The position numbers and the translations under genes are program-made. 40,668 bases of DNA, from assembly GCF_004368405.1 (NCBI RefSeq), contig NZ_SBJH01000065.1:1-40668 (forward strand). The letters run 5' to 3'. The stretch is from Olivibacter sp. XZL3 (GTDB taxonomy: Bacteria > Bacteroidota > Bacteroidia > Sphingobacteriales > Sphingobacteriaceae). Position 1 is the first letter of the stretch, and each line of letters begins with the position of its first letter. Positions 15,998 to 37,535 of this stretch are shown here, in pieces. Under the pieces are notes generated by a model that did no database searches, was not told the DNA's origin, and saw only the letters and a program-made list of their open reading frames with translations.

Positions 15998-16015
15998 TTG
16001 TTTCAATTTATAGCG
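15998..16015 (-). promoter_or_regulatory. Shared PUL box, copy A (CGCTATAAAT-TGAAACAA)
   Basis: One of four related 18-bp sequences in front of PUL transcription units, consensus GGCGAWAWNT followed by TGADACAA. This copy matches all eight positions of the right part and 7 of 10 of the left part. It ends 50 nt before the -7 element. It partly overlaps a 13-bp palindrome ATAGCG-T-CGCTAT (16010-16022). It is a candidate binding site of the AraC-type regulator encoded next door. Confidence 0.5.
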
Positions 16016-16040
16016 TCGCTATTTATTACACAAGCATTAA

Positions 16041-16079
16041 AAAAAGCGACAATAGGCATTCCCGCTCGCGAAAAATGCC
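16041..16079 (-). terminator. Weak hairpin plus T-run after the response-regulator gene
   Basis: On the minus strand GGCATT/AATGCC (16055-16079) forms a 6-bp stem. It is followed after about 9 nt by a run of seven T near 16040-16046. A short stem immediately before the T-run is also possible. It sits between the response-regulator stop (16138) and the susC1 promoter, where a terminator would separate the two units. The fit is imperfect, so confidence is low. Confidence 0.35.
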
Positions 16080-16137
16080 AATATCCGAGCTAAGGAGAAA
16101 AAGGACTTTCGGGCAGCTAAAGCGGTAGCCCTAACGA

Positions 16138-16932
16138 TCAATTCCGATGTTTTAGCTGTTCTACGTACTCCGACGGGGAAACGCCAAACTGCTTATGAAA
16201 ATTCCTGCCAAAATGGGTCTGCGAGCTGTAGCCAACCCTCTCGGCTATCTCATAAATTTTCAGCCCGCCCTCTGCGAGCAGCTCCGCTGCCTTTTTGAGG
16301 CGGGCAACATTGATCAATTCGTTGGGCGTTAAATTCGAAATGGCTTTTATCTTTCGATATAAGGTAGGTCTACTCATGCACATGGAATCAGCCAAATGCT
16401 CCACATCCAGCCCCGGGTTTTCCAGTTTCTGCTGGATTAAATCGTTCAACTTTTCTAAGAAAAGTTCATCCGATTTGGAATGAGCCATCGTTTTAATATG
16501 CACCAAAGGAGAAGAAGCAAAGTATTCACGGAGCTTATTTCGATTCGCCAGCAGATTAGCGATCTGCACTTGCAGGTATTCCGGCGAAAAAGGCTTCTCG
16601 ACATAAGCATCCGCGCCAAATTCCAATCCTTGGATCTTGGATTGCAAGGTGTTTTTCGCGGTAAGCAGGATAATAGGAATATGGCAATATTCGACGGTCG
16701 ACTTTACCGTTTCACATAGTGCATAGCCGTCCATCACCGGCATCATGATGTCGCTAATGATCAGCTGAACGCTTTCATCGGCCAGACAAGCGAGTGCCTC
16801 CCGACCATCGGTCGCCGTAAACACCTGATAATGGTCCTGTAAATCGTCTGCTAAAAAATCTAATATCTCTCGGTGATCATCCACAAGAAGTAAATTAGGT
16901 TTGCCTGTAGCTGTTGGTATAGTATTTAACAT
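16138..16932 (-). CDS. Response regulator with AraC-type DNA-binding domain (split HTCS, output half)
   Basis: The receiver domain covers about residues 12-128, with acidic pair DDH (18-20), phosphoacceptor Asp61 in ISDIMMPVMDG, LLTAK (93-97) and EKPFSPEY. The AraC-family double helix-turn-helix spans about 155-262 and ends in VGYSSQTHFGRNFHKQFGVSPSEYVEQLK. This is the exact C-terminal half of a hybrid two-component PUL regulator, but encoded as a separate protein. Its ATG overlaps the stop of the kinase gene in the 7-nt string ATGTTAA, so translation is probably coupled. Its reading frame has a TGA only 3 nt before the ATG. It should activate the PUL promoters when phosphorylated by the upstream kinase. 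Confidence 0.93.
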   Translation of the reverse strand: MLNTIPTATGKPNLLLVDDHREILDFLADDLQDHYQVFTATDGREALACLADESVQLIISDIMMPVMDGYALCETVKSTVEYCHIPIILLTAKNTLQSKIQGLEFGADAYVEKPFSPEYLQVQIANLLANRNKLREYFASSPLVHIKTMAHSKSDELFLEKLNDLIQQKLENPGLDVEHLADSMCMSRPTLYRKIKAISNLTPNELINVARLKKAAELLAEGGLKIYEIAERVGYSSQTHFGRNFHKQFGVSPSEYVEQLKHRN

Positions 16933-37200: not shown

Positions 37201-37420
37201 TAGTCGTCCCAATCTTCGGATTTCCTTTGACATAGACTGAAACCCCTTGTAACGGCAAATCGGAAGTATCCTTTACCGTTCCAAAAAATGTACTCTCTTG
37301 TTTGAGCGACTCTTCTGGATGTTTAAGCTTTTCTGCATGAATCTCTCCGGTTACTGCCATACAGCAAATAAAAAAAAGAGCACCCAACAGACACAATTGA
37401 AATTTAGGCTTTATTGACAT
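34244..37420 (-). CDS. SusC/RagA-family TonB-dependent outer-membrane transporter (pair 2)
   Basis: Signal peptide to about residue 29, carboxypeptidase-regulatory-like domain (about 44-120; [22 protein letters not shown]), then the TonB-box/plug start [20 protein letters not shown]. Plug landmarks are [12 protein letters not shown] and [29 protein letters not shown]. The 22-strand barrel ends in the beta-signal [10 protein letters not shown]. Length 1058 aa. It heads an eight-gene leftward operon ending with GH43. A -7-like element about 60 nt upstream and box B 30 nt before that suggest control by the split regulator. Confidence 0.96.
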   Translation of the reverse strand: [1058 protein letters not shown]

Positions 37421-37479
37421 ATCCTCATCATTTAAGTATTTGGTTAATTTACTATTGGCTTGCTAAAAGGTTTTCTTAA

Positions 37480-37487
37480 CAAAGAAA
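37480..37487 (-). promoter_or_regulatory. -7-like element of the susC2 operon
   Basis: Minus-strand TTTCTTTG is one mismatch from TAnnTTTG. No clear -33 TTTG lies 19-21 nt upstream, which suits an activated promoter. The leader would be about 53 nt, close to that of susC1. Confidence 0.4.
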
Positions 37488-37517
37488 GCAATGATTCCGC
37501 TGAAACGTATACTTAAT

Positions 37518-37535
37518 TTGTCTCAGAATATCGCC
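37518..37535 (-). promoter_or_regulatory. Shared PUL box, copy B (GGCGATATTC-TGAGACAA)
   Basis: It matches the consensus at 9 of 10 positions in the left part and fully in the right. It ends 30 nt before the -7-like element of susC2. The gene-sense orientation is the same as for the other copies. A separate inverted repeat ATATCC-GTT-GGATAT lies about 100 bp further upstream (37632-37646). The rest of the 306-bp gap 37421-37726 holds the terminator of the GH29 gene. Confidence 0.5.

Follow-up and report, generated by a model that had tools for sequence, protein, structure and literature searches.

The 40,668-bp stretch analysed here (the window), a whole contig (NZ_SBJH01000065.1, here C119) of the 5.36 Mb genome of Olivibacter sp. 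XZL3, carries a polysaccharide utilisation locus (PUL) in which four transcription units, headed by the genes susC1, GH43a, GH2 and susC2, are each preceded by a similar 18-bp box. An initial annotation placed this box at either 30 or 50 nt from the −7 element of the promoters, which raises the question of what the box is, why it should stand at two distances and which regulator reads it. We find that it belongs to a longer element, a tandem direct repeat with a 21-bp period and a single distance of 29–31 nt to the −7 element, and judging from sequence we think it very likely that the tandems are operators of the hybrid two-component system (HTCS) type, bound by the neighbouring AraC-type response regulator (16138-16932), which would control all four PUL units. 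The boxes as first described are:

15998-16015, minus strand: box before susC1, CGCTATAAATTGAAACAA
20365-20382, plus strand: box before GH43a, GGCGAAAACTTGATACAA
26808-26825, minus strand: box before GH2, AAAGCCATTTTGAGACAA
37518-37535, minus strand: box before susC2, GGCGATATTCTGAGACAA

All four 18-mers were located in the sequence at these coordinates and in gene-sense orientation, and their literal gaps of 50, 30, 50 and 30 nt to TACCTTTG (susC1), GTAATTTG (GH43a), TTCCTTTG (GH2) and TTTCTTTG (susC2), respectively, are correct. With up to three mismatches the box consensus has four matches in the window against 1.60 expected, a count that 7 of 100 shuffles reach. The GH2 box, with five mismatches (hand-counted), is not among the four, and one of them, at 15977-15994, is an overlooked copy, downstream of the susC1 box by 21 nt. 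Genome-wide, the consensus gave 211 matches (104 + 107), compared with 172 (82 + 90) for a reversed-pattern control. By these shuffles and this control the box, which is also wrongly delimited, is not significant alone, and we reject it as a functional unit.

When the box was slid along each promoter, a second copy was found 21 nt away at three of the four. The partner lies downstream of the box at susC1 (8 of 11 letters) and upstream of it at susC2 (7 of 11), in both cases at the best offset, and downstream at GH2 (6 of 11 letters alone), where conservation makes the case for a second half-site a probable one. The operator unit reads YTGADACAA-N12-YTGADACR, i.e., direct half-sites with the core YTGADACAA set 21 bp apart. 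Two direct half-sites about 21 bp apart, as in an HTCS-type operator, thus stand at susC1, GH2 and susC2; at GH43a the distal half is degenerate, and a TTGGAAAGA lies 24 bp upstream of the proximal half. As also expected of such operators, they lie in gene sense before susC or glycosidase units of the regulator's own locus and are conserved across species:

15977-16006, minus strand: susC1 operator, distal half TTGAAACAA at 16006-15998 and proximal half TTGATACAC at 15985-15977, 21-bp period
26787-26816, minus strand: operator of the unit GH5/GH10 remnant-GH2-epimerase-GH43b, TTGAGACAA at 26816-26808 and TTGACACGG at 26795-26787
37518-37547, minus strand: susC2 operator, distal half CTGATAAAA at 37547-37539 and proximal half CTGAGACAA at 37526-37518
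20353-20382, plus strand: GH43a operator, proximal half TTGATACAA at 20374-20382, distal slot degenerate, GAAAGAGGA

Measured from the proximal half-site, the distances to the −7 element collapse to one value. In the sigma-ABfr promoter, as summarised in the available part of PMC7366714, the −7 element is TAnnTTTG and the −33 element TTTG. A TAnnTTTG-like element begins 29 nt after the proximal half at susC1 and GH2 and 30 nt after it at susC2 and GH43a, with zero, one, one and two mismatches, respectively:

15940-15947, minus strand: −7 element of susC1, TACCTTTG, 29 nt from the proximal half, identical in the Olivibacter loci L119, L121 and L123
26750-26757, minus strand: −7 element of the GH2 promoter, TTCCTTTG, 29 nt from the proximal half
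37480-37487, minus strand: −7-like element of susC2, TTTCTTTG, 30 nt from the proximal half (a TAnnTTTG match of equal quality lies at offset 8)
20413-20420, plus strand: weak −7-like element of GH43a, GTAATTTG, two mismatches, 30 nt from the proximal half

The notion of one box at two alternative distances therefore gives way to a tandem direct repeat at a single one. The apparent 30 and 50 nt arose because distal halves (susC1 and GH2) had been compared with proximal halves (susC2 and GH43a), and the gap of 50 at susC1 and GH2 is simply 29 + 21. The left part of the original box, GGCGAWAW, maps to a semi-conserved stretch preceding the proximal half-site (GAnGAAAnA in the relatives' consensus). 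No TTTG marks the −33 place: across 28 promoters, those of the window included, TTTG had no preferred position upstream of the −7 element and no offset held more than one.

To see how far this layout extends, the response regulator was searched in 60 genomes, of which 16, its own included, match at E ≤ 1e-60. The comparison set consisted of regions round the ten best of the 15 relatives (six genera, 20 stretches) and 17 named loci (L012-L028); L009-L011 were excluded as lying on the same contigs as those of genomes G001, G004 and G002. A scan of half-site spacings from 12 to 35 bp over these 37 loci (L119-L138 and L012-L028), counting matches in non-coding DNA that precede a sense reading frame, peaks at 21 bp, with 13 occurrences against a mean of 0.74 at other spacings in the Olivibacter set, seven against 0.52 in the other-genus set and, more weakly, four against 0.70 in the named loci (where 24 bp has three), counts in which orthologues are not independent, so that Poisson values overstate the case. 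Minor counts were also recorded at 13 bp (six, Olivibacter, L119-L127) and at 31 bp (three in each of two sets, Olivibacter included).

From the 37 loci we took 24 training operators, defined as 21-bp-spaced matches with at most two mismatches in non-coding sequence no more than 350 nt upstream of a sense open reading frame (ORF); further 21-bp matches that failed the non-coding or upstream conditions numbered three in Olivibacter, four in other genera and four in named loci. The 24 operators are present in 4 of 4 Olivibacter genomes, 6 of 6 genomes of other genera and 4 of 17 named loci (L012, L019, L020 and L027). They had been picked regardless of their −7 elements, and TAnnTTTG with at most one mismatch lies 29–31 nt past the proximal half in 17 of the 24; the remaining offsets from 0 to 59 hold nine matches in 1368 cells and no second peak.

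Aligning the promoters of relatives, as the initial annotation had proposed, showed that the operator is conserved and its upstream flank less so. The 30-bp operators share a mean pairwise identity of 77% at susC1 (four sequences), 89% at the GH2 promoter (three) and 75% at susC2 (five). By comparison, the 60 bp upstream reach 26%, 38% and 29%, the stretch from operator to −7 element 46%, 53% and 33%, and the downstream sequence 35%, 30% and 32%, respectively, all from ungapped anchoring, which depresses the flank values. Homologues of susC2 carry the tandem at the matching place in 4 of 4 other Olivibacter genomes, to which the window's operator is 70–80% identical. In L121 and L123 the orthologues of GH43a possess a distal half that deviates at one position, TTGAGAAAA; the distal half in O. 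jilunii is degenerate like the window's.

Other shared elements were noted in passing. The susC2 promoters of L120, L122 and L125 have GCTAAATCGTTTT between operator and −7 element, and in the window CGTTTAGC follows the susC1 operator; no enrichment was seen over the four genomes scanned. A second promoter element of the relatives' susC2 promoters, GCTAAATCG, was not above control in four genomes, and a palindrome had three window matches against 4.5 expected.

Scans of the whole genome, also proposed at the outset as a check on clustering, place two of the four sites at the very top. The extended unit with at most two mismatches has 63 matches in 5.36 Mb compared with 50 for the reversed control; its sole exact match is the susC1 promoter, and the susC1, GH2 and susC2 promoters supply three of its eight matches at up to one mismatch. 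Setting the spacing to 20 instead of 21 left three sites, none of them in the window. At three mismatches, a setting too loose for interpretation, matches on both strands together outnumbered those of the reversed control in every one of 11 genomes but G011. The extended pattern was composed after viewing the sites, and independent evidence must therefore come from comparison, for which we built two profiles without window sequence: R1 from the 24 relatives' operators, orthologous Olivibacter promoters included, and the stricter R2 from the 11 found in other genera. Scoring the best 150 of 3779 first-look candidates, R1 returned 24 matches at E ≤ 10, with susC1 first (5.3e-7), GH2 second (1.3e-5) and the next at 0.006; R2, on the best 150 of 4424, returned 21, with susC1 (1.6e-5) and GH2 (2.1e-5) again first and second, a third at 0.043 and GH43a seventh (E 0.33). 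A fifth R1 match in the window, at 23430-23454, lies antisense within GH43b and scores above GH43a and susC2; it is taken as chance. With a plain weight matrix the four sites rank 1, 2, 4 and 6 in the window (GH43a sixth), two coding matches being interspersed. The susC1 and GH2 sites thus stand out by themselves genome-wide, and those of susC2 and GH43a rest on position, distance and conservation.

The candidate binder is encoded within the same locus, beside a sensor kinase gene:

16138-16932, minus strand: response regulator of 264 residues, receiver and AraC-type HTH_18 domains (Pfam), predicted operator binder
16926-20078, minus strand: membrane sensor kinase, Reg_prop propeller, Y_Y_Y, HisKA and HATPase_c domains (Pfam)

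Between them the two proteins hold every domain of an HTCS (propeller sensor, HisKA, HATPase, receiver and AraC-type helix-turn-helix), all above Pfam gathering scores, spread over two overlapping genes instead of a single polypeptide. The definition of an HTCS thus excludes this regulator, which is a counterpart made of two proteins that works in the same way. The kinase H-box and the region of the receiver aspartate appear intact, by motifs that we take to be the relevant ones. We rejected a frameshift artefact as the cause of the split, as O. jilunii, O. domesticus and O. sitiensis, among others, also have separate genes. The closest named relatives of the kinase are those of O. jilunii (82% identity), O. 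domesticus (65%) and O. sitiensis (51%). Across 80 named loci a response regulator is adjacent in 61, as a separate gene in 10 (kinase identity 37–82%) and fused in 51 (26–43%), and the loci L019 and L020 have fused regulators with the tandem operator still present.

Upstream of the kinase gene there is a different repeat, an 11-bp-period array (about 20164-20218, minus strand, about 85–140 nt before the kinase start) of three TCCGAA-N5 units followed by degenerate TCC units. It has seven genome matches with at most two mismatches, two of them exact (the other at C113:22177-22204), and none in the reversed control. The kinase genes of O. jilunii and O. domesticus are preceded by similar arrays, and one more array stands before an ORF on contig C115 that resembles an FtsX-type permease.

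The mechanism that we infer starts with the propeller sensor kinase (16926-20078), which would detect a plant oligosaccharide and phosphorylate the separate response regulator (16138-16932). A dimer of this AraC-type regulator would sit head-to-tail on one face of the DNA, the 21-bp period amounting to two helical turns. The proximal half-site, preceded by the semi-conserved GAAA-like stretch, ends 29–31 nt upstream of the sigma-ABfr −7 element (TAnnTTTG), which would put its end just upstream of the expected −33 place, and from there the dimer may recruit RNA polymerase to four predicted units: susC1-susD1 and following genes, GH43a, GH2-epimerase-GH43b, and susC2-susD2 and following genes. 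Binding, phosphotransfer and activation, like the ligand and the operon extents, are predictions of this scheme, made from the observed element, its spacing, its −7 distance, its conservation and its co-occurrence with the regulator.

The link between operator and regulator was examined through their co-occurrence. In each of the ten relative genomes the best match lies near the orthologous response regulator, within 7 kb in eight and at 24 and 44 kb on the same contig in two, although nine of these ten sites belonged to the training set. The trained weight matrix gives 33 matches (24 of them the training sites) in the 757 kb of training loci against three in the 1,121 kb of L029-L088, those three where the kinase is 38–46% identical. 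Fifteen extra stretches were also searched, 13 round other homologues of the response regulator or their flanks and two extending the loci of G001 and G003, and seven of them (L181, L182, L184, L187, L188, L191 and L192) hold a weight-matrix match of at least 25. The extending stretches show additional operators beyond the window-equivalent region, at G001 C10:60106 (L191, score 42.3), which precedes a TonB-dependent receptor gene, and at G003 C1:723728 (L192, 28.4); TAAATTTG stands about 12 nt past the proximal half-site (hand-counted).

Several observations weigh against assigning all four sites to the neighbouring regulator. Among the more distant named loci 13 of 17 lack the operator at equal strictness, and of the 15 extra stretches seven have no weight-matrix match of 22 or more and one just 22.6. 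Within the window, no good partner half lies 21 bp away at GH43a, where offset 9, not 30, gives the best −7-like match (one mismatch); at GH2, offset 11 scores 7 of 11 letters, above the 6 of 11 at offset 21. Profile R1 is weak for GH43a (rank 9, E 0.39) and susC2 (rank 12, E 1.18), and R2 does not list susC2 in the own genome at E ≤ 10. The motif also occurs outside this locus, good matches lying far from the regulator at G004 C7:279767 (4.6e-5) and C12:863355 (1.3e-4) and at G003 C1:3523007 (1.5e-4), and another AraC-type regulator may share the site.

The alternative that survives best takes up this last point, i.e., that the tandem is the operator of a regulator encoded elsewhere and not of the neighbouring kinase and response regulator. 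Direct repeats are usual for AraC-family proteins, the response regulator as binder is a prediction, and the distant matches include, besides G004 C7:279767, one in the own genome at C100:214826 with a counterpart in G001. Against it stand the presence of the operator in the locus of the orthologous regulator in 10 of 10 genomes from six genera (the ten best of 15 relatives) and the enrichment of matrix matches in the training loci over L029-L088, and we regard it as unlikely. A single 18-bp site working from two positions, 30 and 50 nt, on one face of the DNA would account for the literal gaps of 50, 30, 50 and 30; yet the promoters with a box at 50 also carry a half-site at 29, the susC2 box at 30 is accompanied by a distal half, and the relatives have one −7 peak and no second, which makes this reading very improbable. 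Chance resemblance within AT-rich promoters, to which the shuffle result for the box alone and the E values of 0.3–0.4 for GH43a alone might point, is less credible still in view of the profiles that contain no window sequence, of the peaks in spacing and in −7 distance, and of the conservation of the operator relative to its flanks. The proposal of the initial annotation that the element is the binding site of the split HTCS-like regulator and marks its regulon thus very probably holds, given the genome clustering, the conservation and the co-occurrence with the orthologous regulator, once delimitation and spacing have been corrected.

The C100 site (214826-214858, R1 E 0.006) lies 186 nt before a paralogue of the window's GtaA-like gene (47% identical) and extends over the end of a small ORF upstream. 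In G001 a similar site (E 0.023) precedes the counterpart of this gene, and both sites have TAATTTTA at about 29 nt (hand-counted); the C100 site is a candidate distant member of the regulon. A further tandem, TTGAGACAAATAGGCTATAAATTGATCCA, precedes a sulfatase gene at C92:16692-16724 of the own genome (L142, L203), with an exact TAGCTTTG about 19 nt downstream (hand-counted), not 29–31, and a promoter much like it lies at G003 C1:3436503 (L187), about 11 kb from a response regulator paralogue of 52% identity. This promoter type is perhaps that of a sister regulon with the operator one turn nearer.

The promoter before GH2, inside a gene cluster, had been described as unexpected, a view that the relatives do not bear out. 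In O. jilunii the equivalent promoter precedes an extra gene of 388 codons with a GH10 match barely over the Pfam cut-off; the copy in O. domesticus is cut by the end of the stretch. In four other genomes the operators of L130, L132, L134 and L138 stand before proteins that share a similar N-terminal motif and whose matches to GH5, GH10 or a catalytic core are weak, and in O. sitiensis (L126) the operator stands directly before GH2. In the window about 1 kb of this gene is gone, leaving the signal-peptide codons and the last few codons:

26529-26702, minus strand: remnant of a GH5/GH10-like lipoprotein gene, first ~25 and last ~10 codons (ends hand-counted), intact in L009 (2472-3638)

The remnant now forms a short ORF, some 57 codons long, which overlaps GH2 at its conserved start (26539), and the GH2 ORF call from 26626 is probably too long. 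We regard the GH2 promoter as inherited because the same promoter in relatives precedes, and drives, the GH5/GH10-like gene that is mostly deleted here, although the ~1 kb gap may also come from misassembly.

The glycan-use genes of the locus comprise two susC/susD pairs, a GH43 protein with two GH43 stretches, a second GH43 and a GH2, together with an aldose epimerase, a GtaA-like protein, a GH127, an alpha-L-fucosidase and a DUF2961 protein. Glucuronate isomerase, mannonate dehydratase and a PfkB-type kinase are encoded nearby. This gene content points to a plant glycan with uronate and arabinose. For six of the proteins, NCBIfam gave nothing above cut-offs among the families listed (for two of them, the best 25 of 125 and of 77 families).

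The analysis turns the puzzle of a box with two spacings into one testable rule, a 21-bp direct repeat 29–31 nt from TAnnTTTG, which could serve to predict the regulons of HTCS-like regulators in environmental Bacteroidota. It ties the operator to a split regulator, with the same tandem beside fused relatives, and it explains the internal GH2 promoter as the leftover of a gene deletion. More tentatively, and with the balance slightly against it in our own estimate, the family of Olivibacter might possess a class of PUL promoters that have no −33 element, in which an activator dimer with its proximal half 29–31 nt from the −7 element replaces the −33 contacts, the module being unchanged by fusion or splitting of the regulator.

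A literature search on HTCS promoter motifs of Pedobacter PULs found nothing in the library covered, and the available parts of PMC12125979 (a Vibrio regulator) and PMC11501099 do not describe an HTCS operator. The closest known systems are the HTCS motifs that Ravcheev et al. 2013 (PMC3878776) predicted for Bacteroides thetaiotaomicron, which repeat directly at an average distance of 21 bp, with 16-bp sites and a 5-bp spacer for HTCS_Man, and for which HTCS dimers on one side of the DNA, two helix turns apart, were proposed. The operators described here resemble them as direct repeats of about 21 bp before polysaccharide-use operons beside the regulator gene, and differ in the genus, in the regulator being split into kinase and response regulator, and in the fixed −7 distance measured here. 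The response regulator has the same receiver and AraC-type DNA-binding domains as BT4124-RR and BT4663-RR, which act on susCD promoters and for which electrophoretic mobility shift assays with promoter fragments are reported in the accessible text of PMC11253607; theirs lies within a one-polypeptide HTCS, whereas that of Olivibacter is a separate protein of 264 residues. The promoters are like the sigma-ABfr promoter in having a TAnnTTTG-like element, here 29–31 nt downstream of the operator, and unlike it in lacking a conserved TTTG at the −33 place (28 promoters), an element that likewise could not be identified in Flavobacterium johnsoniae according to the part available of PMC7366714. The operator layout is thus already known from HTCS direct repeats, to which this analysis adds a rule for the distance to the −7 element, a regulator split in two and a promoter inherited from a deleted gene.

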